NCBI RefSeq assembly: GCF_009831625.1
Contig: NZ_WUUS01000002.1
Location: 1 to 64,000 of the forward strand
From: Halobaculum saliterrae
Lineage (GTDB): Archaea > Halobacteriota > Halobacteria > Halobacteriales > Haloferacaceae
Reading direction: 5' to 3'
DNA: 64,000 nucleotides
Shown one piece after another: positions 2,419-22,770 of this stretch. Positions within the stretch are counted from its first letter, which is position 1. Every line of letters begins with the position of its first letter. A program made the position numbers and the translations under genes. The notes beneath the pieces are model-generated. The model was not told the DNA's origin. It saw nothing but the letters and a program-made list of their open reading frames with translations, and did not search any database.

Positions 2419-2924
2419 GCGTGCCCGACTCGCGAGGATCGTCGACGGGGGACGACGGCGAGTCCGTCGCGGGCGAGGCGGCACACGATGGCGGTGGGCT
2501 GCCGGCCGTGACAGTCCGCGACGGCGCCGAACGTGCGACCGTCGAGGGTCGCCGGCTGCGCGAGATGGACCGTGAGCGGATCGAACGCGAGTACCTGTGT
2601 GCCAGTGGCGAACGCTGGGGCGGCGTCTGGCGGGGCGTCCCCGTCGCCGCGGTGCTGGAGGAGGTCGCCATCGGCGAGGACGGCGGGGCGACACACCTGC
2701 GGGTGGCCGCCGCCGGCGACTACGCCGTCTGCGTCCCCGTGGCGACGGCCATGGAGGCACATCTCGCCGTCGAGCGCGACGGGGACGTGCTGCCGTCGGA
2801 GCGCGGCCCCCGGTTCCTCGCACGGGTCGACGCGGGGAAGACGGTGAAGGCCGTTCGCGAGCTCGAACTCCTGCGGCTCGACCCGAGCGAGGACCCCCAG
2901 GACTACGAGAACTTGGGGTACTAA
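2415..2924 (+). CDS. Small SUOX-fold (molybdopterin oxidoreductase-like) protein
   Basis: Encodes a 169-aa soluble protein. Residues about 60-165 resemble the core of the sulfite-oxidase/YedY molybdopterin domain: a Cys followed by W-G-x-x-W-x-G-V-P and a leucine/valine-rich helix (LCASGERWGGVWRGVPV), the place where the family's Mo-ligating Cys sits. At this length it lacks the dimerisation domain and any Tat signal. The GTG start overlaps the stop of the Mrp ATPase by four bases. It could bind or hand over the molybdopterin cofactor for NarG, or be a degenerate relative; the sequence does not decide. A 130-bp promoter region separates it from the nar transcript. Confidence 0.72.
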   Translation: MSVPDSRGSSTGDDGESVAGEAAHDGGGLPAVTVRDGAERATVEGRRLREMDRERIEREYLCASGERWGGVWRGVPVAAVLEEVAIGEDGGATHLRVAAAGDYAVCVPVATAMEAHLAVERDGDVLPSERGPRFLARVDAGKTVKAVRELELLRLDPSEDPQDYENLGY

Positions 2925-2960
2925 CCGCCTAACTCCCTCGGGTCAGTCACAGCCGATATC

Positions 2961-3033
2961 CTGGTACTGCGGCCGGATACCATCGTTCCCACTCGTTCCC
3001 AGCTTCTCGGATCCCGATCCTAGGTTTTTCAAG
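2961..3033 (+). promoter_or_regulatory. nar operon promoter with two upstream elements
   Basis: CTGGTAC (2961-2967) and GCCGGATAC (2972-2980) form an element, with TGGTA-N11-TACCA symmetry, that recurs with identical spacing upstream of nirK. A tandem CGTTCCCA (2984-2991 and 2994-3001) follows; the second copy forms GTTCCCAG, shared with the halocyanin and (inverted) nirK promoters. A TATA-like TTTTTC lies at 3024-3029, predicting transcription start at about 3055. The spacing suggests an activator site such as that of the haloarchaeal NarO regulator. Confidence 0.6.
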
Positions 3034-3054
3034 GTGGGCTGGGTAGCGCCGTTC

Positions 3055-3096
3055 ATGTCGAACAGGACGGAGATAGCGGATCGAACCAAGGGGTGA
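3055..3096 (+). other. Leaderless 13-codon mini-ORF at the nar transcript start
   Basis: ATG at 3055 lies about 28 bp after the TATA-like box and opens a 13-codon reading frame (MSNRTEIADRTKG) ending at 3096. A second mini-ORF (3118-3153, 11 codons) ends 6 nt before narA. Both could be chance, but they occupy the exact place where a leaderless ribosome would start. narA has its own ribosome-binding site, so these may be leader peptides. Confidence 0.35.
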
Positions 3097-3159
3097 ACAG
3101 GGCGTGCATATCACTCCATGGACGAACACCGGTCGGGACACACGACGGGGTGATCGCTG

Positions 3160-3798
3160 ATGGACCGTCGAGCGATCGCCGTCGTGCTCGTCGTGCTCGC
3201 CGTGCTCGCGCCGACGTGGTTCGTCGCGATGCACGGGGAGCCCCCGTCCGAGGAGATCCGGATCGACCAGAGCGTCAGCGAGATCAGGCCGCTCGACGGG
3301 TTCGTGGACACGCCGAACAAGCTGTCGCCGGCCCAAGTCGGCGTCGTCGTCTGGGTGGCGCTGTTGGCCCTGCTCGGCGCGATGGCGTTTTTCCACCGGT
3401 TCATGAACAGGGCCGCGCGGCCGGACCCGGGCGAGGGCGCGTCCGGCGGCGGGGGGGCCGAGGCGACCGCGACGGACGGCGGCCACGCGACCGGGAGTGC
3501 CGAGGTCGCCGACGCCGACGGATGGACCACGTTCCCGTGGATCGAGACGGACTACCGCTGGGTCGTCGAGTACCACGACGCGAGCGACGCTGTCGAGGGG
3601 CTCGTCGCGATGGGCGGACTCACGGTGCTCACGATCACGTTCGCGGCGCTGTTCACCGCCGAGTACCTCACGCTCGCGCGGACCCAGTACTTCGGGATCT
3701 ACACCTTCGGGATGTTCATGTCGCTGACCGGGCTGACGGTGTCGTACTACGCCTGGTTCATGCCCCACGTCGAGGTCGCCGAACGGAGGGATCACTGA
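3160..3798 (+). CDS. narA: NarA-like membrane protein of the haloarchaeal nar operon
   Basis: Encodes a 212-aa membrane protein: membrane segments at about 5-27, 58-80, 147-168 and 175-197, with a Gly/Ala-rich loop at 87-120. It carries no haem or metal motif. Position and topology match NarA, the first product of the Haloferax narABCGHJ operons, presumed to belong to the membrane part of the nitrate reductase/bc1-like complex. The ATG is preceded by GGGGTGATC (3147-3155), a near-perfect complement of the 16S rRNA end, so it is translated from a leader of about 100 nt rather than leaderless. The stop overlaps the narB ATG (TGATG). Function is assigned from context only. Confidence 0.75.
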   Translation: MDRRAIAVVLVVLAVLAPTWFVAMHGEPPSEEIRIDQSVSEIRPLDGFVDTPNKLSPAQVGVVVWVALLALLGAMAFFHRFMNRAARPDPGEGASGGGGAEATATDGGHATGSAEVADADGWTTFPWIETDYRWVVEYHDASDAVEGLVAMGGLTVLTITFAALFTAEYLTLARTQYFGIYTFGMFMSLTGLTVSYYAWFMPHVEVAERRDH

Positions 3799-4517
3799 TG
3801 ACCGGAGACCCCACGGACCACGACCACGATCACCACGAGCACGACGAACCGGACTGCCACGACGGCCCGCCGGGCGACGGGACGACCTGTGACGCCTGTC
3901 CGAACGACGACGGCGGTCTCTCCGTCGAGCCGAGCATCTACGAGCCTTTCTGGCGGGACAACCGCGCGGCGCTGGGCCGACGCGGCTACGCGAAGTTGCT
4001 CGCCACGGTCGGCGGCCTCACGGCGCTCGGGAGCCTCATCGCCCCGGTCGCCGGGCTCACGCAGGTGTTCGAGCGAAAGTACCGCGGCCCGGTGTACTCC
4101 GACGGCGTCCCGCTCGTGGACGCCGACGGAGAGCGGATCGCGGAGGGCCGCCTCGCCCCCGGCGAACAGCTCACCGTCTTCCCCGAGCCACGGCCCGGGA
4201 TCGAGGACGCGCCGACGCTGCTCGTGCGCTTTGAGGAGTCGGCCTACAGCGAGGACATCCGCGGGGAGTACACGATCGGCGGGTACGCCGCGTTCTCGAA
4301 GGTGTGCACCCACGCCGGCTGCATGGTCGCCGACCGCGACGGCGACGTGCTCGTGTGTCCGTGTCACTCCGGCCGCTTCGACCCGGTCCGCGGCGCGCAG
4401 GTCGTCGGCGGTCCGCCGCCGCGGTCGCTTCCGCAGCTGCCGATCACCGTCTCCAGCGACGGCTACCTCATCGCCACCGCCGACTTCCAGGGGCCGGTCG
4501 GGCCCGGGGGTGAGTGA
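3798..4517 (+). CDS. narB: Rieske iron-sulfur protein of the nitrate-reductase bc1-like complex
   Basis: Encodes a 239-aa membrane-anchored Rieske protein that passes electrons between quinol and nitrate reductase via NarC. Residues 8-35 are His/Asp/Cys-rich and probably disordered; one membrane segment lies at about 66-88; the Rieske domain covers 140-225. Box I is CTHAGC (C170, H172, C175) and box II is CPCH (C187, C189, H190), so C170, H172, C187 and H190 should hold the [2Fe-2S] cluster and C175-C189 the disulfide. The start overlaps the narA stop, and narC follows within 3 nt. All key residues are present, and the family call is firm. Confidence 0.92.
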
Positions 4518-4519
4518 CG

Positions 4520-5962
4520 ATGGCGTCGCGCCTCGAGGCGGTCTACGACTGGTTCGACGATCGGCTGGACGTCGACGACGCCAGCGACTTCGCCGGGAAG
4601 GCGTTCCCCGCGGAGGACTCGTACCTGTTGGGCGAGGTCGCGCTGTTCTGCTTCGTCGTGCTCGTCTCCACGGGCGTGTTCCTCGCGTTCTTCTACGAGC
4701 CGAGTACGACCGCCGTCGAGTACGAGGGCAGCGTCGCGCGCTACCAGGGACAGGAGATGCCGGCGGCGTTCACGAGCGTCCTCAACATCACCTACGACGT
4801 CCCGTTCGGAATGCTCCTGCGGCGGATGCACCACTGGGCGGCGCACCTGTTCGTCGCCTCCATCGCGCTGCACATGCTCCGGGTGTTCTTCACCGGCGCC
4901 TACCGCAACCCGCGCGAGCCGAACTGGGTGGTCGGGACCGGCCTCGCCGGGCTGTCGATGTTCGCGGCGTACACCGGCTACGCGCTCCCGTACGACGAGT
5001 TCGCCAGCACCGCGGTCGGCATCGGCTACAACGTCGCGGGGTCGATCCCGCTGGTCGGCGACCCGCTTGCGGCCATCGTCTTCGGGGGGTCGTTCCCGAC
5101 GAGCGCGACGATCCCGAGGTTCTTTTTCATGCACGTGTTCCTCATCCCGGCGGCCATCGCGGGGCTGATAGCCGTTCACATGGCCATCCTCATCCGTCAG
5201 AAGCACACCGAGGCCGAACGCGACGGGGACGTCGTGCCGCCGGGTTCGTCTCGACCGGCGGCCGACGGTGCGGGCGTCGACGCCGCGGGGACGGGAACGG
5301 AGGTCGCCGACGGGGGGCGCGCCGGGATCGCCCGCGACGACGACAGCATCGTGATCGGCCTGCCGGCGTTCCCGAACCAGGCGGCCGTGAGCGCGGTCGT
5401 GTTCTTCCTCACGATGGCCGTCCTCTCGCTGTTGGCTGGCTTCCTCCCCGTCCACAACATCGCGGCGTACGGCCCCAACGACCCGGCGTCGACGCCGTCG
5501 CTCATCATGCCGGACTGGTTCCTCATGTGGGGGTACGGCTTCCTGAAGGTTGTCCCGTCGTGGATGAGCGTCGACGTGCTCGGCGTCCACATCAGCTCCG
5601 AGTTCATCGGCGGCCTCCTGCTGCCGGGGCTGGTGTTCGCGGGCGTCGCCGTGTGGCCGTTCATCGACCGCGCGGAGGAGCCCGAACACTTCAGTCTGAA
5701 CCCCCTCGACCGGCCGCCACAGACGGCGGTCGGCATCGCGGCCATGACGTTCGTCATGGTCGCGTCGATCGCCGGCATGGACGTGCTCGTCGCCGAGATA
5801 CTCCACACGTCGACCGCGGAGCTCAGACCGTATCTGACCGCCGCACTCGTGGTCGTCCCCGTCGCGGCCGGCACGATCACCTACGCCGTGCTCGGCGGGT
5901 TCGGGGACGACGACAGCGACGACGCGTCGCGATCGGACGGCGGGGAGGGAGACCATGACTGA
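4520..5962 (+). CDS. narC: Cytochrome b subunit of the nitrate-reductase bc1-like complex
   Basis: Encodes a 480-aa polytopic cytochrome b. The N-terminal half is cytochrome b6-like: helix B has RRMHHWAAH...HM and helix D has MHVF...VHM, giving the paired His ligands of two b haems. A charged linker (about 240-285) leads to a subunit-IV-like half with the Q-site motif PDWF, the counterpart of PEWY. ATG at 4520 follows GGGGGTGA (4506-4513); GTG at 4514 is an alternative two codons earlier. It overlaps the next gene by 8 nt. With NarB it should form the quinol-oxidising module feeding the exported-side NarGH. Confidence 0.9.
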
Positions 5963-6161
5963 CACCGACAGCGGGCCGGGGCGGCTCACGCTGTCGCCGC
6001 GGGGATACCGTTGGGCGGATCGTGCGACGAAACTGGCCGGCGTGGCGTTGATCGCCGTCGGACTCGACGTCGGCGGCGACACGCTCGCCGGCGTGGCGCT
6101 GGCGGCGCTGGGCGTGGCGCTCGGCCTCGCGACCGTGGTTCTCGACATCGACAACCAATGA
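5955..6161 (+). CDS. Small two-helix membrane protein between narC and narG
   Basis: Encodes a 68-aa protein with two Gly/Ala/Val/Leu-rich membrane segments (about 25-42 and 44-62) and a short charged N-terminus. It corresponds by position to 'orf1' of Haloferax nar operons. It overlaps narC by 8 nt and its stop overlaps the narG ATG, so it is tightly coupled to both. It may be an accessory subunit of the cytochrome b module; no motif supports a more exact role. Confidence 0.7.
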
Positions 6162-7348
6162 CCGGATCCGAACCTACTGACACGGCTGACGAACAGGCGG
6201 GCGACGACCTCACGGCTGCACGCCGCGACTTCCTCAAGGGGGTCGGGGCGGCCGCGGCCGTCGGCGCGAGCGGCGTCGGCGTCGCCGACCAACTCGGCGA
6301 GATGAACGCGCTGGAGGTCGTCGACGACCCCATCGGGAGCTACCAGTACCGCGACTGGGAGGACCTCTACCGCGAGGAGTGGGACTGGGACGACAAGGCC
6401 CGGTCGACCCACAGCGTGAACTGCACGGGCTCGTGCTCGTGGCAGGTGTACACCCGGAACGGCCAGGTGTGGCGCGAGGAGCAGGCGGGCGACTACCCCC
6501 GATTCGACGACTCGGTGCCGGATCCGAACCCGCGCGGCTGTCAGAAGGGGGCGTGCTTCTCGGACTACGTGAACGCCGACCAGCGTGTCACCCACCCGCT
6601 TCGCCGGGTCGGCGAGCGCGGCGAGGGGAAGTGGAAGCGCGTCTCGTGGGACGAGGCGCTCACGGAGATCGCAGAGGAGGTCGTCGACACCGTCCAAGCC
6701 GAGGAGTACGACGCGATCAGCGGGTTCACGCCGATCCCGGCGATGAGCCCGGTGTCGTTCGCGTCGGGGAGCCGGCTGATCAACCTCCTCGGCGGCGTGA
6801 GTCACTCCTTCTACGACTGGTACTCGGACCTGCCGCCGGGCCAGCCGATCACGTGGGGAACCCAGACCGAGAACGCCGAGAGCGCCGACTGGTACAACGC
6901 CGACTACATCATCGCGTGGGGGTCGAACATCAACGTCACCCGGATCCCGGACGCGAAGTACTTCCTCGAGGCCGGCTACGACGGGGCGAAACGGGTCGGG
7001 ATCTTCACCGACTACAGCCAGACCGCGATCCACTGCGACGAGTGGATCGGCCCGGAGCCGGGCAGCGACACCGCGCTGGCGCTCGGGATGGCCCGCACCA
7101 TCGTCGACGAGGGACTGTACGACGAGGAGCACCTCAAGGAGCAGACGGACATGCCGCTGCTCGTTCGCGAGGACACCGGGAAGTTCCTCCGGGCGAGCGA
7201 GGTCCCCGGGCTGGACGCCGACGCCGACCGCCCGGAGAAGGTGTTCGTCATGGTCGACGCCGACGGCGACCTCCGGACCGCGCCCGGGTCGCTGGGCGAG
7301 CGCGACGGCCAGCACGACGACTCGGTGAGCATCGAGCTCGACTTCGAC

Positions 7349-7803
7349 TACTTCAACCAGGCGAAGGGGAACATCGCCGTCGAGGAGGAACTGTGGCCGA
7401 AGCTCGACCTCGTCGTGGACATCAACTTCCGGATGGACTCGACGGCGCTCAACAGCGACATCGTGCTCCCGACGGCGAGCCACTACGAGAAACACGACCT
7501 CTCGGTGACGGACATGCACACGTACGTGCACCCGTTCACGCCGGCGGTCGAGCCGCTCGGCGAGTCGAAGACGGACTGGCAGATCTTCCGCGAGCTCGCG
7601 GCGAAGATCCAGGAGGTCGCCGAGGAGCGCGGCGTCGAGCCGGTCGAGGACCGGAAGTTCGACCGCGAGATCGACCTCCAGTCCGTCCACGACGACTACA
7701 CGCGCGACTGGCTCGACGACGAGCCCGGCGCGCTCGCGGAGGACAAGGCGGCCGCGGAGTTCATCCTCGAGCACTCCGAGGAGTCCAACCCGGAGGGAAG
7801 CGA
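7349..7803 (+). other. narG block B, displaced upstream of its native place
   Basis: This 455-bp block (151 codons plus 2 nt) encodes the GKGN/KLDLVVDINFR/SDIVLPTASHYEK part of NarG that should follow block A. It joins the preceding segment in frame (LDFD then YFNQ). Its 3' edge is ...AAGCGA; it should be followed by the C that now begins 8356. Confidence 0.85.
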
Positions 7804-8355
7804 CCGCGACTCGACGCCGAGACGGCGGTCGAGACCGACGAGGGCGCGGTGTCGACGCGAACCGTCTGGCTGAACCTCCGCGACGAGCTCTCGGAGTACA
7901 CGCCCGAGCGCGTCAACGAGATCACCGGCGTCGGCGAGCAGACCCACCAGGAGATCGCGAGGGAGTTCGCTGGCGTCGAGCGCGCGAAGATCATCCACGG
8001 CAAGGGCGTCAACGACTGGTACCACAACGACCTCGGCAACCGCGCGATCCAGCTGCTGGTCACGCTGACGGGCAACCTCGGCCGGCAGGGGACCGGGCTC
8101 GACCACTACGTCGGCCAGGAGAAGATCTGGACGTACAAGGGGTGGCAGAACCTCTCGTTCCCGACCGGGAGCGTCCGCGGCGTCCCGACGACGCTGTGGA
8201 CGTACTACCACGCCGGGATCATGGAGAACACCGACCCCGAGACGGCCGAACGCATCCAGGAGTCGGTCGACAAGGGGTGGATGCCTCTGTACCCCAGCGA
8301 GCGCGACGACGGAAACCGGCCGGACCCCAGCGTCATGTTCTGCTGGCGCGGGAAC
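7804..8355 (+). other. narG block A, displaced downstream of its native place
   Basis: This 552-bp block (184 codons) starts PRLDAETAV and ends FCWRGN. It contains the WYHNDLGNRA and HYVGQEKIW motifs. It should directly follow LDFD at 7348. In its present position it is read in frame 1, while both neighbours are in frame 2, so the displacement creates two apparent frameshifts. Confidence 0.85.
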
Positions 8356-9126
8356 CGAGCAGCTGACGTTCGACGACATCGAGGAGCAGCCACGACGCAT
8401 TCTCGATACGGGCGACCACTGGACGTCGGACGTCGAGGACGGGGAGGCGTACACGCCGTGGAAGGACTACGTGCAGGAGAAGAACCCGTGGCCGACGTTC
8501 ACGGGTCGCCAGCAGTACTACATCGACCACGACTGGTTCCTCGAACTCGACGAGGCGCTCCCGACCCACAAGGAGGCCCCCGTGCTCCAAGAGAAGTCGG
8601 AGTACCCCCTCGGCTACAACACGCCTCACAGCCGCTGGTCGATCCACTCCACGTGGCGCGACAGTTCGAAGATGCTGCGGCTGCAGCGGGGGGAGCCGAC
8701 CGTCTATCTCAACCCCGACGATGCCGCGGAGCGCGGCATCGAGGACGGCGACACCGTTCGCGTGTACAACGACCTCGACTCCGTCGAGGTGCAGGCGAAG
8801 ATCTACCCGAGCGGCGAGCCCGGGACCGCCCGGCACTACTTCAGCTGGGAGCGGTTCCAGTACCCCGACCGGAACAACTTCAACTCGCTCGTGCCGATGT
8901 ACATGAAGCCGACCCAACTCGTCCAGTACCCCGAGGACACGGGCGAGCACCTTCGGTTCATTCCCAACTACTGGGGGCCGACCGGCGTCAACAGCGACGT
9001 TCGCGTCGAGGTGGAGCTCGTCGAGTCCGCGGCCGACGACGCGGACGACGAGACCGACGGCGAGAGCGGCTCGGTGTCGGGCGGAGCGCTCGGACGCCTC
9101 TCCGGGGTTCTCGGAGGTGACGACTG

Positions 9127-10179
9127 ATGAGCCAGAGCGACGACTCCACGGTCGACCTCGCGGAGGGCATCGACCATCAGGTCGCGATGGTGATGGACCT
9201 GAACAAGTGCATCGGCTGCCAGACGTGTACGATCGCGTGCAAGACGAACTGGACGGAGTCGGGCGGCCGCGAGTACATGTACTGGAACAACGTGGAGACG
9301 AAGCCCGGGTCCGGCTACCCCCGCGACTGGGAGGAGATGGGCGGCGGCTGGGACGAGAGCGGCGAGGAGCGCACCCCCGGCGACCTCCCCGATCGCGAGG
9401 ACTACGGCCGCGCCTGGGACTTCAACCACGAGGCGATCATGTATGAGGGGAGCGACGAGCCGCTGCGCCCCTTGGAGAACGCCGACTGGGGTCCCAACTG
9501 GGACGAGGACGAGGGCGCCGGCGAGTACCCCAACTCCTACTACTTCTACCTCCCGCGCATCTGCAATCACTGCACGCACCCCTCCTGCGTCGAGGCGTGC
9601 CCGCGCTCGGCCATCTACAAGCGCGAGGAGGACGGCATCGTCCTCGTCGACCAGGACCGCTGTCGCGGCTACCGCTACTGCGTCGAGGGCTGTCCGTACA
9701 AGAAGGTGTTCTACAACGCCGAGACGAAGACCAGCGAGAAGTGCATCTTCTGTTACCCGCGGATCGAGGGCGAGGGTCCCGAGGGGGAGGTCCGGCCGCC
9801 CTCCTGCGCGGAGGACTGTCCGCCACAGCTCCGGCACGTCGGCTTCCTCGACGACGAGGACGGCCCCATCCACAAGCTGGTCAACGAGTATGAGGTGGCG
9901 GTCCGGCTCCACCCCGAGTACCGGACAGAGCCGAACGTCTACTACATCCCGCCGTACGCACCCCCGCAGACGTCGGAGGGCGGGGAGACCCTCGACGCCG
10001 AGCGCATCCCCCGGGACTACCTCGAGGAGCTGTTCGGCCCGAAGGTCAACGAGGCGCTCAACACGATCAGCCGCGAGCGTGACCGCGTTCGCCGCGGCGA
10101 GGAGAGCGAACTCATGGAGATCCTCTCGACCGTGAACAACGACGACCAGTACCGGCTGGAGGTGTTCGACGATGCGTGA
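9127..10179 (+). CDS. narH: Respiratory nitrate reductase beta subunit (Fe-S)
   Basis: Encodes the 350-aa electron-transfer subunit that carries electrons from the membrane module to NarG. Cys clusters: C28, C31, C34, C38; C146, C149, C154, C158; C179, C185, C189; C206, C209, C227, C231. At 182 a Tyr takes the place of the fourth Cys of one cluster (CRGYRYC), where E. coli NarH has Trp, so that site should be [3Fe-4S] and the other three [4Fe-4S]. There is no Tat signal; it should be exported with NarG. The ATG overlaps the narG stop, and its stop overlaps the next ATG by 8 nt. The gene is intact, in contrast to narG. Confidence 0.95.
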   Translation: MSQSDDSTVDLAEGIDHQVAMVMDLNKCIGCQTCTIACKTNWTESGGREYMYWNNVETKPGSGYPRDWEEMGGGWDESGEERTPGDLPDREDYGRAWDFNHEAIMYEGSDEPLRPLENADWGPNWDEDEGAGEYPNSYYFYLPRICNHCTHPSCVEACPRSAIYKREEDGIVLVDQDRCRGYRYCVEGCPYKKVFYNAETKTSEKCIFCYPRIEGEGPEGEVRPPSCAEDCPPQLRHVGFLDDEDGPIHKLVNEYEVAVRLHPEYRTEPNVYYIPPYAPPQTSEGGETLDAERIPRDYLEELFGPKVNEALNTISRERDRVRRGEESELMEILSTVNNDDQYRLEVFDDA

Positions 10180-11047
10180 GGACGACGGGAGCGTTCCCGA
10201 CCGCACCCCCGAGTCCACGCTCGGGTCGAAACTCTCCCGCGAGCACGTCGCCGCGCTCGCGCTCGTGGTGACGGTCGTGGCGTCGGCTGCGCTGCTCCCG
10301 ACGCTGGCGGACGCCCGTCCGGCCTACGAGATCCCGGTGGACTACCAGCAGTCGTCGGCCGATCTGTCCGAGCCGTCGGGCGAGGCGTGGGACTCGGTGC
10401 CCGCGGCGAGCGTTCCCCTGAGCAGCGCGGGCGCGTCCGTGCCGGCGGCCGACGAGACGAGCGTCGAGTCCGTCCGCGTCGAGGTCGCCCGGACGAACGA
10501 GCGTCTGTACCTCAGGCTCTCGTGGGCGGACGCGACGACGGACACGTCGACCGACGAGATCAGCGGGTTCGCCGACGCCGTCGCCGTGCAGCTTCCGGCG
10601 AACCAGAGCGAGCGCCCGCCGATCGCGATGGGGTCGACGAGCAACCGCGTGAACGTGTGGTACTGGAGCGGAACCGGCGAGCACGAGGCGCTGTTGGCGG
10701 GCGGTCCCGGCACGACGACCGAGATCGACGAGCCGACGCTGCGGGCGAACGCGACCCACGAGGACGGCCGCTGGACGGTCGTGTTCTCGCGGTCGATGGC
10801 GTCCGACCGAGCGAACGTGACGGACGTGTCCCCGAACCGGGACATGGACGTGGCGTTGGCGGTGTGGAACGGGTCGAACATGGAGCGCTCGGGCCGGAAG
10901 GCCACGAGCGAGTGGTACTACCTCGCGCTTGGGCCGGACACCGGCGGGCCGCCCTACGAGGCGATCCTCTGGTCGGTCGCCGGCCTCGCCATCGTGTTCA
11001 CGACGCTCGTGACAATCGAGGGGATCCGCCGAACGAGGGGTGAGTGA
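10172..11047 (+). CDS. Ethylbenzene-dehydrogenase-gamma-like haem-b anchor protein of the nar operon
   Basis: Encodes a 291-aa protein with an N-terminal membrane segment or signal (27-47), a beta-rich exported domain and a C-terminal membrane helix (about 262-282). The domain resembles the gamma subunits of ethylbenzene dehydrogenase/DMSO-reductase-type enzymes, which bind one haem b by Met and Lys/His side chains; residues such as ...YLRLSWADATTD and WTVVFSR fit that fold. It sits where bacterial operons have narI but is not homologous to the four-helix NarI. It overlaps narH by 8 nt and narJ by 4 nt or abuts it. The likely role is electron transfer or anchoring of NarGH on the outer face. 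Confidence 0.72.
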   Translation: MREDDGSVPDRTPESTLGSKLSREHVAALALVVTVVASAALLPTLADARPAYEIPVDYQQSSADLSEPSGEAWDSVPAASVPLSSAGASVPAADETSVESVRVEVARTNERLYLRLSWADATTDTSTDEISGFADAVAVQLPANQSERPPIAMGSTSNRVNVWYWSGTGEHEALLAGGPGTTTEIDEPTLRANATHEDGRWTVVFSRSMASDRANVTDVSPNRDMDVALAVWNGSNMERSGRKATSEWYYLALGPDTGGPPYEAILWSVAGLAIVFTTLVTIEGIRRTRGE

Positions 11048-11049
11048 TC

Positions 11050-11856
11050 GTGGCCGACGGACCCGCCTCCCCGCCGAACGATCGACGTGGCACGTCGGAC
11101 GCCCTCGGAGCGGTCGACAGCGAGGCGGCCGCCCGGGGCGCGGTGTACGCGCTCGCGGCGCGGACGTTCACGGAGCCGGACGAGGAGCTGTACGACGCGC
11201 TCTCGGACGGCTCGCTCGACGCGGAGTTCGCCACGCTCGTCGAGCGGACCGGGCTCGACGTCGACCCCCCGGACCTCGGGGTGGACGACGACCGCGACAC
11301 CCTCGCGGCCCGGTACAACGACCTGTTCGTCATCGGCTACTCCGAGGTGATCGACGGAACCGACGGGACGATCGACAGCCAGGGGCCGCCGGTGTCGCTG
11401 TACGAGTCCCGCTACCGCTCGGGGGCCTCCTGGAACGACGTGAACCTGGACCTCGCCCGCGCCTACGAGCACTTCGGGTGCGAGATCGACGACGACGAGC
11501 GCCGCCACCACGACCACCTCCGGCTCGAACTCGAGTTCGCGGGCTACCTCTGCCGGCTCGCGGCCGCGGACGCCCGAGCGACCGGGGGTACGACCCAAGG
11601 CAACGGCGAGGCCGACGCGGACGTGCGCCGCGCCCGCCTCGACTTCCACGACCGCCACCTCTCGCCGTTCGTCTCGGGGCTGCACGAGGCGCTCGACGAG
11701 GAGCCCGGGACGGACCTGTACGGCCGCCTCGGGCGGTTCCTGGCGGAGTTCGTCGCCGCCGACGTGGACGACCTCGCGTCGCGAACCGGGGCGGGCCCCG
11801 GGGCCGAACGCGAACACGCCCGGACCGAGGGAACGACCGAGGTGGACCCCTCGTGA
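11050..11856 (+). CDS. narJ: NarJ/TorD-type chaperone for nitrate reductase
   Basis: Encodes a 268-aa soluble, mostly helical protein of the NarJ/TorD/DmsD family, which binds the Tat signal and apo-form of the Mo subunit and holds back export until the cofactor is inserted. Visible family features: the N-terminal helix ARGAVYALAARTFTEPDEELYDAL, the Y-x-x-L-F pattern around RYNDLF, and PPVSLYESRYR. The start could be GTG 11050 (SD GGGGTGA at 11037-11043) or GTG 11044 overlapping the previous stop. The C-terminal 35 residues are low-complexity. The stop overlaps the GTG of the next gene. Confidence 0.85.
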   Translation: MADGPASPPNDRRGTSDALGAVDSEAAARGAVYALAARTFTEPDEELYDALSDGSLDAEFATLVERTGLDVDPPDLGVDDDRDTLAARYNDLFVIGYSEVIDGTDGTIDSQGPPVSLYESRYRSGASWNDVNLDLARAYEHFGCEIDDDERRHHDHLRLELEFAGYLCRLAAADARATGGTTQGNGEADADVRRARLDFHDRHLSPFVSGLHEALDEEPGTDLYGRLGRFLAEFVAADVDDLASRTGAGPGAEREHARTEGTTEVDPS

Positions 11857-12803
11857 GCTCCCCGACCACCGACGCGACGCGTGTCGGCTCGACTCCGAGT
11901 CTCGATCGACAGTCGGGCGCGTCCGTCGCGGGCGGCCTCGCGATGGCGGCCGTCGCGGGGTCGACGCTCCTGCGGGTGCTGTACAACGCCCCCCTCGCCC
12001 CGATCGAGGTCCCGGAGGGCGCCGTCACGGCCGCGGGGACGCTCGCGACGGTCGTCGTCGTCGCGGCGCTGGCGGCGCTCGCGCTCGCGTCGGATCGGCC
12101 CGCGGTCCGCGTCGGGCTTCTCACCGTGGGCGTGTTCGGCGCGCTGGCGACCGTGGCGGACGCCGCGGCGGTCCCGGCGGTCGTCGCCGTCCCGGGCGGA
12201 ACGGCGCTGGCGATGGGCGCCGCGCTCGGCGCACCGTCGTCGTATCGGGGGCTGCGTCGCCGCGTCGTCGCGCTGGCGTTCCCCGCGGCCGTCGCCGTCG
12301 CGCTCGCGGCCGCGACGGGCGTGGTCGATCCGGGGCTTCGAGGAACCGGAACCGTCGGCGTGCTGGCGGCGACGACGCTGCTCTCGCTCAGAGTCGAGGG
12401 CGACCGGACCGCGCTCGTCGCCGGCGGCGTCGGCTTCGCCGCCGTCGCCGTCGTGTCGTCCGCGGCGCCGTTCCTCACGGGGAGCGCGCTGCTCGTCGGC
12501 CTCGGGGTCGTCGACGCGCCGGTCCTCCTCGTCGCGACCGCGGTCTTCGGCGCGGTCGCGGCCGCGGTCGCCGGGGCCCGTCGCGGGGAGTACGTCCTCG
12601 TGTTCGGCGTCGGAGTCCTGTTGTCGGCCGGCGCCCCCACGGCGCCGCCGTCCGCGACGGCGGTCTGTCTCGGTGCGACGCTCGCCTGTGTCGACCTCGA
12701 CGAGCTCCTCGGACCCGGAGGCGGTGACGGAGCCGGACGGGGGTCCGAGAACGGAAACGGTGACGGGGATCGAGCCCCGACCACGGGGGTGAGCACGCGA
12801 TGA
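11853..12803 (+). CDS. Polytopic membrane protein of the nar operon, unknown function
   Basis: Encodes a 316-aa protein with about nine Ala/Val/Leu/Gly-rich hydrophobic segments between residues 20 and 285 and a Gly/Asp/Asn-rich C-terminal tail. It has no haem-ligand His pattern, transporter signature or Cys motif that I recognise. It is not a NarK-type nitrate transporter (no such motifs, too short). It is coupled by 4-nt overlaps to narJ upstream and the HEAT-repeat gene downstream, so it belongs to the same transcript. Confidence 0.7.
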   Translation: MSSPTTDATRVGSTPSLDRQSGASVAGGLAMAAVAGSTLLRVLYNAPLAPIEVPEGAVTAAGTLATVVVVAALAALALASDRPAVRVGLLTVGVFGALATVADAAAVPAVVAVPGGTALAMGAALGAPSSYRGLRRRVVALAFPAAVAVALAAATGVVDPGLRGTGTVGVLAATTLLSLRVEGDRTALVAGGVGFAAVAVVSSAAPFLTGSALLVGLGVVDAPVLLVATAVFGAVAAAVAGARRGEYVLVFGVGVLLSAGAPTAPPSATAVCLGATLACVDLDELLGPGGGDGAGRGSENGNGDGDRAPTTGVSTR

Positions 12804-13636
12804 GGGACCCCGACGAGGCGACCGACGGGCCGACCGACCCGCGCGTTCACCCCGAGGAGAGCCCCGGCTTCGGCGAGGAGCCCGAGGGGCTGGAGGACAT
12901 CGAGGTGAGCCGCGACGTGACGATCGGCGAGGCGACGCCCCGGGAGCTCGCGGCGACCGACACCGTGCCCGTCGCGGGCGAGGCCGCCGAATCGAAGGTC
13001 GAGTCGCTCCGCGAGGGCGACGCCGTCGAACGTCGTCGCGCCGCCCTCGCGCTGGGCGAGGAACGCGCGACGGAGGGGATCGTCGACGCGCTCGTCGCAC
13101 ACGGACTGTCCGATTCCGACGAGGACGTGCGCCAGTTCTCCGTGGAGTCCCTGGGGCAACTCGGGGGGGAACGCGCGGCCGTCGCCGCCGCCGCGACGCT
13201 CACGGACGACGACCCGTGGGTGCGCGCCGAGGCGGTCGTCGCGCTCGACCGGCTCGACCGCGCCGGCCACGCCGAGGAGATCGAGCGCGCGCTCGACGAC
13301 GACCACCACGCGGTCGTTCGCAACGCGATGGTGTCGCTGTTCAAGCTCCGCGGCGAGGCGATGCTCCCGGTGTTGCTGGAGCGGTCGCACGCGGACAGCG
13401 AGCGCCTCCGCGAGTGGGCGGTCCACCTCCTCGCCGGGGTCGACGACGACCGGGCCGACGAGCGACTTGAGGCGGTCGCCGGCGACGCCGACGAGCCGCA
13501 GATCGTCCGCAACACCGCCGTCCGCGCGCTCGACGCCGACCCCGGGCGGTTCCGCCGGCAGTTCTCCGGGGGGACGGAGAACGACGCCGCCGACCTCCCC
13601 GGCGAGAGCACGCTGAACAGGCGACCCGACCTCTGA
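12800..13636 (+). CDS. HEAT-repeat protein of the nar operon
   Basis: Encodes a 278-aa soluble protein. Residues about 70-250 contain five or six HEAT/PBS-lyase-type repeats, seen as recurring pairs such as R-x-x-A-L-A-L-G-E, VRQFSVESLGQLG, VRAEAVVALDRL, VRNAMVSLFKL and LREWAVHLLAG. Such repeats bind other proteins or, in PBS-lyase relatives, cofactors. It is coupled to the membrane protein upstream (ATGA overlap) and 21 nt before the second Mrp ATPase. An assembly scaffold for the nitrate reductase complex is a reasonable guess from context only. Confidence 0.82.
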   Translation: MRDPDEATDGPTDPRVHPEESPGFGEEPEGLEDIEVSRDVTIGEATPRELAATDTVPVAGEAAESKVESLREGDAVERRRAALALGEERATEGIVDALVAHGLSDSDEDVRQFSVESLGQLGGERAAVAAAATLTDDDPWVRAEAVVALDRLDRAGHAEEIERALDDDHHAVVRNAMVSLFKLRGEAMLPVLLERSHADSERLREWAVHLLAGVDDDRADERLEAVAGDADEPQIVRNTAVRALDADPGRFRRQFSGGTENDAADLPGESTLNRRPDL

Positions 13637-13657
13637 CGTGACCGACGACCCACATCC

Positions 13658-15073
13658 ATGACCGACGGACACCAGCGATCGACCGACGACCGCGCACAGC
13701 CACCCGACGACGGGGACCACGACGCCGAGGCACACCGGGACCCGGAGGACCCGCCCGAGGGACCCTCGCCCTCGCCCACTGCCGAGGAGGTCGAGGCCGC
13801 GCTGCGTCGCGTCCGCGACCCCGAGGCCGACACCACCGTGTTCGACGCCGGCGTCGTCGAGGGCGTCGCGGTCGACGACGGCGCCGTGACGATCGAGGCC
13901 GACCTCCGCGAGTTCCCTCGGGAGTCGGCCGAGGCCGTCTCGAAGACGATGGTACGGGCCGTCTCCGACGTCCCGGGCGTCTCCGGCGCCCACGTCGAGC
14001 AGGTCGACCCGAGTCCGGACACTGAGGGCCGGTCGGCCGGGATCGAGACGGCGGACCGCGTCATCGCCGTCGCCAGCGCGAAGGGCGGCGTCGGCAAGAC
14101 GACGGTCGCGACGACGCTGGCGTGCGCGCTCGCAGCCGACGGCGACGCGAACGCCGGCGGTTCGGACGACCCGAACGCCGCCGGCGACTCCGAGGGGTCG
14201 GACGACCCCTCCGTCGGCCTGTTCGACGCCGACATCTACGGCCCGAACGTGCCGGAGGTGCTCGACCTCGCGGGCCCGGTGTACAGCGACAACGACGGGA
14301 ACCCCGTCCCCGCCGAGACGGACGGCCTGGAGGTGATGAGCGTGGGACTGCTCTCGGAGGGCGGCCCGCTCGCGTGGCGGGGCGCGATGGCCCACGACGC
14401 GCTCTCAGACCTGTTCGAGGAGACCGCCTGGGACGACCCCGACACGGTCGTCGTCGACATGCCGCCGGGCACCGGCGACGTGGCGCTGACGACGCTGCAG
14501 GAGGTGCCCGTCGACGGGGTCGTCCTCGTCACGACGCCGTTCCATGCGGCCGTCTCAGACACCGGCCGCGCGCTCGAACTGTTCGAGGAGAACGACGTCC
14601 CGGTACTCGGCGTCGTCTCGAACATGGGCGAGTTCGTCTGCGACGACTGCGGGAAGGTACACGACCTCTTCGGCGGCGAGGACCCCCTCGAGGCGCTCGA
14701 CGTGCCGGTGCTCGCGGAGCTCCCGTTCACGCCCGAGATGCAGGAGACGCCGGCGCCCTCGGCGTCGTCGCTCCCGGACCGGGCCGCCGACCTCGCCGCG
14801 GCGGTCGAGGACCGATACGATGAGATCTGGCGGGTCGACCCGCCGGAGGACGCGGTCGACATCCGCGGCCTCGACCCGGAGACGCGCGAGGAGCGGGTTC
14901 GGGAGGGCTTCCTCAGGACCGAACGCGGGGATGAGTGTTTCGTCGTGAGCGACCGCGACCCGACGCCGGTCCGGTCGTTCCTCCTCGATCTGGTCGAGGC
15001 CGACGAGCTCCCGAGCTTCCGCGTCAAACGGCAGAACCCGGAGACGTGGTACGCACGGGCGACCCGTCCCTGA
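13658..15073 (+). CDS. Mrp/ApbC-type P-loop ATPase (Fe-S cluster carrier family), copy 2
   Basis: Encodes a 471-aa paralogue of the ATPase at 817. The architecture is the same: acidic N-terminus, DUF59/MIP18-like domain (about 45-115), P-loop domain with SAKGGVGKTT starting near residue 140, CxxC pair C328/C331, and a similar C-terminal domain (about 400-471). A loop of about 25 residues rich in Asn/Gly/Ser/Asp is inserted after the Walker A helix, as judged against copy 1. It starts 21 nt after the HEAT gene and probably ends the nar transcript, about 130 bp before norB. Confidence 0.88.
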   Translation: MTDGHQRSTDDRAQPPDDGDHDAEAHRDPEDPPEGPSPSPTAEEVEAALRRVRDPEADTTVFDAGVVEGVAVDDGAVTIEADLREFPRESAEAVSKTMVRAVSDVPGVSGAHVEQVDPSPDTEGRSAGIETADRVIAVASAKGGVGKTTVATTLACALAADGDANAGGSDDPNAAGDSEGSDDPSVGLFDADIYGPNVPEVLDLAGPVYSDNDGNPVPAETDGLEVMSVGLLSEGGPLAWRGAMAHDALSDLFEETAWDDPDTVVVDMPPGTGDVALTTLQEVPVDGVVLVTTPFHAAVSDTGRALELFEENDVPVLGVVSNMGEFVCDDCGKVHDLFGGEDPLEALDVPVLAELPFTPEMQETPAPSASSLPDRAADLAAAVEDRYDEIWRVDPPEDAVDIRGLDPETREERVREGFLRTERGDECFVVSDRDPTPVRSFLLDLVEADELPSFRVKRQNPETWYARATRP

Positions 15074-15095
15074 CCGATCGACGACGGCCGACCCC

Positions 15096-15180
15096 GAACG
15101 AGTTCTCGAATTTCCAACCGATCGGCCGAACATGTTCTCCCCGGGCGTCGCGCCCTCGAAACGACGAACCCTTCTCAAGG
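15096..15180 (+). promoter_or_regulatory. norB promoter with two GAAC-N2-GTTC dyads
   Basis: GAACGAGTTC (15096-15105) and the perfect palindrome GAACATGTTC (15128-15137) lie upstream of a TATA-like CTTCTCAAGG (15171-15180), which is 30 bp before the norB ATG and resembles the nar box TTTTTCAAGG. Leaderless transcription is expected. The GAACGA half-site recurs in the nar and halocyanin operators. Confidence 0.55.
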
Positions 15181-15205
15181 GTGGCCGGAGTGAAGGGCCG
15201 ACCGC

Positions 15206-21943: not shown

Positions 21944-22770
21944 ACCCGAACCGCGTCGACTCCATCGTCGACCTGCTGTACGGGCTCCTGATCGCGTTGG
22001 CCGTGGGGCTGATACTCGTGGTGGGGACGTCGGTCGGCGTCGCGTTCGGCCTCGGCGTCATCGTCTCGTTCGTCATCCACATCGCTTGGAAGATGGCCCG
22101 GTTCGACCCCCAGTGGATGACCACCGAGGTCCAGCAGCAGGTCGAGGAGACCGTCGCCGAGTCCGTCGACGAGTCCGTCGGCGAGACGGTAGAGAAGACG
22201 GTCGCGGACACGGTGGACAAGACCGTCGAGGAGAAGGTGGGCGAGACGGTGGAGAAGACGGTCGCGGACACGGTAGACAAGACCGTCGGCGAGACGGTGG
22301 AGAAGACCGTCGGAGAGACGGTCGACGAGACGGTGGAGGAGAAGGTGGGTGAGACGGTAGAGAAGACGGTTGGGGAAACGATGGAGGAGGCGGTCGACGA
22401 GACGGTAGAGAAGACGGTCGACGAGACGGTGGAGAAGACAGTCGATGAGACGGTAGAGAAGACTGTCGGCGAGTCGGTGGAGGAGACAGTTGCAAAGACG
22501 GTGGACAAGACCGTCGAGGAGAAGGTGGGAGAGACGGTGGAGAAGGCAGTCGAGGAGAAGGTAGGCGAGACGGTGGAGAAGACGGTCGAGGAGACGGTCG
22601 AGGAAACAGTCGAGGAGACAGTCGAGGAAGCGGTCGAACGGTCCGTCGAGGACCAACTCGATGAGGACGACGATCCGGACGGGGACGACGGTGGCAGCCC
22701 GACGGGGGCCGATTCCGCCGGTGAATCAGACGGCTCCGACGACTCGGAGGACACCAAGGAAGATAGTTGA
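21940..22770 (+). CDS. Membrane protein with a long strict four-residue (x-T-V-x) repeat
   Basis: Encodes a 276-aa protein: two membrane helices (about 13-32 and 34-54), then from about residue 68 to 228 an uninterrupted run of tetrapeptides of the type E/D-T/K-V-E/D/G, with Val at every fourth position and acidic and Lys residues between, then an Asp/Ser/Gly tail. A strict period of four fits a helix with a slow right-handed drift of the Val stripe, not a canonical heptad coiled coil. It has no catalytic motif. The GTG start overlaps the 29-aa ORF stop. It could be a rod on the cytoplasmic side or a trimeric stalk outside; topology is undecided. The family is unknown to me. Confidence 0.8.
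   Translation: MNPNRVDSIVDLLYGLLIALAVGLILVVGTSVGVAFGLGVIVSFVIHIAWKMARFDPQWMTTEVQQQVEETVAESVDESVGETVEKTVADTVDKTVEEKVGETVEKTVADTVDKTVGETVEKTVGETVDETVEEKVGETVEKTVGETMEEAVDETVEKTVDETVEKTVDETVEKTVGESVEETVAKTVDKTVEEKVGETVEKAVEEKVGETVEKTVEETVEETVEETVEEAVERSVEDQLDEDDDPDGDDGGSPTGADSAGESDGSDDSEDTKEDS
22140..22640 (+). repeat. 12-bp coding microrepeat
   Basis: Variants of GAGACGGT(G/A/C)GAGAAGACGGTC recur every 12 bp for about 500 bp inside the repeat protein. Synonymous third bases differ between copies (GTG, GTC, GTA), so the array is old and held by selection on the protein rather than freshly duplicated. Confidence 0.85.

Follow-up and report, generated by a model that had tools for sequence, protein, structure and literature searches.

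The nar operon and its recorded narG

The window analysed here comprises the first 64 kb of contig C2 (454,224 bp) of Halobaculum saliterrae, whose draft genome of 3.78 Mb is distributed over 21 contigs. It contains a nar operon on the forward strand, in which the gene for a cytochrome b subunit (4514–5962) lies upstream of narG (6158–9127). The latter is followed by narH, coding for the 4Fe-4S subunit (9127–10179), by the gene for an ethylbenzene-dehydrogenase-like haem subunit (Orf7-like; PF09459; 10172–11047), and by the gene for a narJ-type chaperone (PF02613; 11044–11856). These neighbours are intact, as the first-pass annotation of the window had already noted for narH and narJ. After narJ, a HEAT-repeat gene and a gene for a P-loop NTPase (NUBPL-like, with DUF2249) are found (12800–15073).

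In the contig sequence, narG is made up of four blocks which stand in the order X-B-A-C. Block X (6158–7348, forward strand; 1191 bp, 397 codons) encodes the N-terminus and agrees with the relatives up to its last base. It is followed, in the same frame, by block B (7349–7803, forward strand; 455 bp; YFNQAKGN...SNPEGS), which is natively the third block, and then by block A (7804–8355, forward strand; 552 bp; PRLDAET...CWRGN, including YVGQEK), which is natively the second. Block C (8356–9127, forward strand; 772 bp) supplies the C-terminal part through the stop codon. The assembly contig agrees with the window letter for letter; the exchanged order is, thus, a property of the assembly itself.

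As recorded, block A is out of frame with both B and C. The first-pass annotation had recognized the frame break at the B|A junction (7803–7804) but had counted only this one, while the frame is broken a second time at the A|C junction (8355–8356). The open reading frame that covers X and B continues into A out of frame and ends at a stop at 7873 after 571 residues, without A and C. Given these two frame breaks, the recorded gene cannot encode NarG. Taken literally, the recorded order implies a strain devoid of NarG despite an intact narH, haem subunit and narJ-type chaperone.

Several hallmarks of the NarG family are present at the locus. Genes for NarH and a narJ-type chaperone adjoin narG, and block X contains both the N-terminal Tat signal (RRxFLK, here RRDFLK) and the Mo-ligand Asp region (FYDWYSD), which have been described for haloarchaeal NarG (PMC8301774). 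The collinear molybdopterin oxidoreductase fold in a single open frame of ~900–1000 codons is missing from the recorded order and is obtained once the sequence is rejoined as X-A-B-C. No second narG was found in the assembly; the only near paralogue, a divergent type II molybdoenzyme with ~36% amino acid identity to block X, is encoded at 447613–449262 of C2, near the contig end. This enzyme is also present in some relatives within the genus, and accessory genes of the HEAT-repeat/NTPase type recur beside both type II molybdoenzyme operons.

Native block order and selection

Joined as X-A-B-C, the four blocks form a single open frame of 990 codons, the last being the stop (989 residues), just as the first-pass annotation had predicted. 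Exactly one triple of cuts (within ±6 bp) leads from this native order to the recorded arrangement, and no base is gained, lost or duplicated in doing so; the coordinates and lengths proposed earlier for an exact exchange of two narG blocks are right to the base.

That A precedes B in this family, as had been claimed, is borne out by the haloarchaeal relatives and by a characterized fold. The order X-A-B-C was present in all 59 haloarchaeal narG loci examined—30 named haloarchaeal loci (L042–L071) and 29 from an order-wide search (L122–L150), some of which may come from the same species—and the exchange in none, which is the outcome of the comparison with relatives that had been set as a test. 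The order-wide DNA search yielded narG matches in 49 of 243 genomes, H. saliterrae counted among them; block order was taken from the 59 loci and not from each of these 49 matches. In close relatives, the blocks adjoin one another with no intervening or missing base. In Halorubrum yunnanense (L042), for instance, the base that follows X is the first of A, and the base that follows A is the first of B; block A aligns to positions 6158–6713 of that locus, directly after X, and block B to 6712–7162, directly before C. The residues at the native junctions (LDFD-P, WRGN-YFNQAKGN and NPEGxDE) likewise agree with those of the relatives. Compared with six Halorubrum loci, the exchange is the sole break of order in the nar operon (~3160–12,200).

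The NarG proteins of Halorubrum, Haloarcula and Haloferax (type II DMSO reductase family) share all four blocks and the same operon neighbours with H. saliterrae, those of Halorubrum at ~78–97% amino acid identity per block, whereas the exchange of A and B and the two frame breaks occur in the H. saliterrae record only. The rejoined protein is, in addition, collinear with the perchlorate reductase PcrA (PDB 5e7o, 4ydd) over query residues 57–953 (E 5.6e-226 with 5e7o), which does not hold for the recorded order. Among 170 family genomes, only that of H. saliterrae contained the recorded X|B junction (≤3 mismatches); the other 169 lacked it. A search of viral contigs for the recorded junction patterns gave no hit, and in a plasmid collection no copy of the H. 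saliterrae narG was found, the best match being 80–90%. The literature on nitrate phenotypes of Halobaculum yielded nothing specific to H. saliterrae.

The suggestion that the gene is not decaying also stands. Stops or frameshifts are not found inside the blocks, all 989 codons being intact, and dN/dS against seven Halorubrum-type sequences is low in each block (X, 0.13–0.16; A, 0.21–0.27; B, 0.06–0.19; C, 0.10–0.16). Block A has the highest values, compared with 0.16–0.21 among the Halorubrum sequences themselves; since block X is also somewhat above its reference range of 0.07–0.09, the modest excess is not limited to the displaced blocks. Intact codons together with low dN/dS imply that no selection-free period is visible, though the gene as recorded would be dead. 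Hence, the exchange is either very recent or absent from the cell altogether.

Joins and origin of the recorded order

The three joins carry little that would point to a recombination mechanism. Microhomology amounts to 2 bp (AC) at X|B (7348–7349), 1 bp at B|A and 0 bp at A|C; the sum of 3 bp compares with a mean of 2.46 in a null of 20,000 random triples (P = 0.38). Common words in the 60-bp neighbourhoods of the joins are 5–7 bp long, inside the null range, and neither direct nor inverted repeats above chance were found at the three edges. The ends of A, B and AB do not form terminal inverted repeats (5, 7 and 8 of 20 matches, respectively), and the joins show no target duplication. The CGAC that had been reported at the edges turned out to be one base out of register, in that X ends in ...CGAC and B in ...GCGA|C.

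Some specific routes were considered and rejected on these grounds. Movement of the IS200/IS605 type needs equal left-flank tetranucleotides; these are CGAC, GAAC and GCGA here, which argues against it. Cut-and-paste transposition, similarly, lacks terminal repeats and target duplication. Excision of an A-B circle via CGAC with subsequent reinsertion predicts a sequence different from the one observed. A tandem duplication with two subsequent deletions would require both deletions to share one interior point and is, by reasoning, less economical than a single three-cut event.

The first-pass annotation had left the choice between an assembly error and a real excision and reinsertion, even a reversible switch. 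The former is the most economical account, while the latter two are unsupported, given the missing repeats and the lack of any relative with the same order. We consider it highly probable that X-B-A-C is an order error of the sequence record, introduced during assembly or later handling of the 21-contig draft. The cell would then carry an ordinary, intact haloarchaeal narG of the order X-A-B-C, and the adjoining 552-bp and 455-bp pieces would have been misordered when the contig was built (assembly, gap closing, curation) or when the sequence was handled later. We infer the location of the error in the record, rather than in the cell, from the conservation of all bases, the seamless joins devoid of sequence logic, the occurrence in one record only, normal constraint and intact neighbours. 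The native order in every relative examined, the X|B junction confined to one genome of the family, the unique triple of lossless cuts with chance-level microhomology, and an otherwise intact and collinear operon without a visible selection-free period all favour this explanation.

The state of the draft is a further point in favour of an error in the record. Isolated Ns occur inside contigs C1 and C4, and no other internally displaced gene was encountered among the flags read out from a scan for coding-frame jumps inside open genes that covered ~2.0 Mb (C1, C2, C3, C4, C10 and C14), weak flags having been inspected in part. In narG, both edges of A were flagged; the remaining flags that were read out corresponded to ordinary gene boundaries and to a Gly/Ser-rich linker at 69.3–69.5 kb of C2. 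The scan would not detect swapped blocks if their lengths were divisible by three.

Relocation-type misassemblies in draft genomes resemble the present case in their local change of order, conserved sequence and restriction to one record; the joins at narG, however, are unlike theirs in lacking repeats, N gaps, and duplicated or lost bases. Ordinary misassembly arises at repeats, and the absence of this classical cause from the block edges is the main weakness of an error in the record. Overlap-based assembly or the scaffolding of small contigs, moreover, usually leaves bases duplicated or missing where contigs end, but no base is lost or duplicated at these joins and C2 contains no N that marks a scaffold join. 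Finally, a single event fits a rare biological accident equally well as a rare artefact. If the record is indeed in error, annotation would label narG a pseudogene and the species would be scored as unable to respire nitrate, though every part of the gene is intact.

The best-surviving rival, which we regard as unlikely, is a real, recent and non-homologous rearrangement, in which three double-strand breaks within ~1 kb were rejoined without loss, creating a fresh narG null allele; as a variant, the 1007-bp A-B segment could have been excised as a circle and reopened at the A/B point. Every base is present, one three-cut event is formally enough, the order is found in the assembly contig, and no decay would be expected if the event is recent. 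Haloferax, a related haloarchaeon, is polyploid (PMC2700283), and polyploidy of this kind could let a null allele ride along with intact copies. Microhomology-mediated end joining of Haloferax, on the other hand, makes deletions (PMC7521656); three clean, lossless joins would, thus, not be its usual product. Microhomology at chance level and the lack of precedent in relatives also speak against a real rearrangement. Stated more specifically, as a lossless exchange of adjacent blocks by homology-free end joining or excision-reinsertion, possibly heterozygous on a polyploid megaplasmid and so amounting to a null allele of nitrate respiration that can revert, the proposal is slightly more doubtful still. 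If real, the event would be a rare case in which three cuts were rejoined without loss, and it would prompt the question of how such ends are joined in archaea.

A reversible switch driven by a recombinase or transposase, in which the exchange of A and B turns nitrate respiration on and off, is very improbable. The only point in its favour is that every base is retained, which is also the case in conservative site-specific recombination. Recombination-site repeats, as a site-specific inversion or shuffling system would carry at the block edges, are missing, as are the other signatures named above, from terminal inverted repeats and target duplication to equal left-flank tetranucleotides and the product of CGAC circle excision. 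Of the two states of such a system, relatives show the native one only.

That a divergent enzyme might function with its blocks ordered as recorded, the presumed native order being wrong for this lineage, found no supporting point and is, short of unknown recoding or splicing, refuted by the two frame breaks, with the native order collinear with PcrA and all relatives.

Genomic setting of the operon

The best plasmid matches of the first 25 kb of the window are Halobaculum megaplasmids. Positions 279–2922 and those from 15,198 onward match plasmids of H. roseum and H. magnesiiphilum. There, only ~125 bp separate the two stretches, compared with ~12.2 kb (2923–15197), including the nar operon, in H. 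saliterrae. Over its parts, the operon is 77–95% identical to Halorubrum loci, and a close narG was found in none of ten other genomes of the genus Halobaculum. From these comparisons, a Halobaculum megaplasmid appears to have acquired the nar operon horizontally, as an insert of ~12 kb from a Halorubrum-like donor. A second copy of the NTPase gene, of the Halobaculum type, lies upstream of the insert (~814–2418).

Elsewhere in the window, positions 22128–22652 match several overlapping positions in Halobaculum plasmids, a pattern which suggests a repetitive coding region with internal repeats. Outside the window, the ends of contig C14 (46184 bp) overlap by at least 298 bp and its GC content (0.567) is well below that of the remaining contigs; C14 is probably a circular plasmid.
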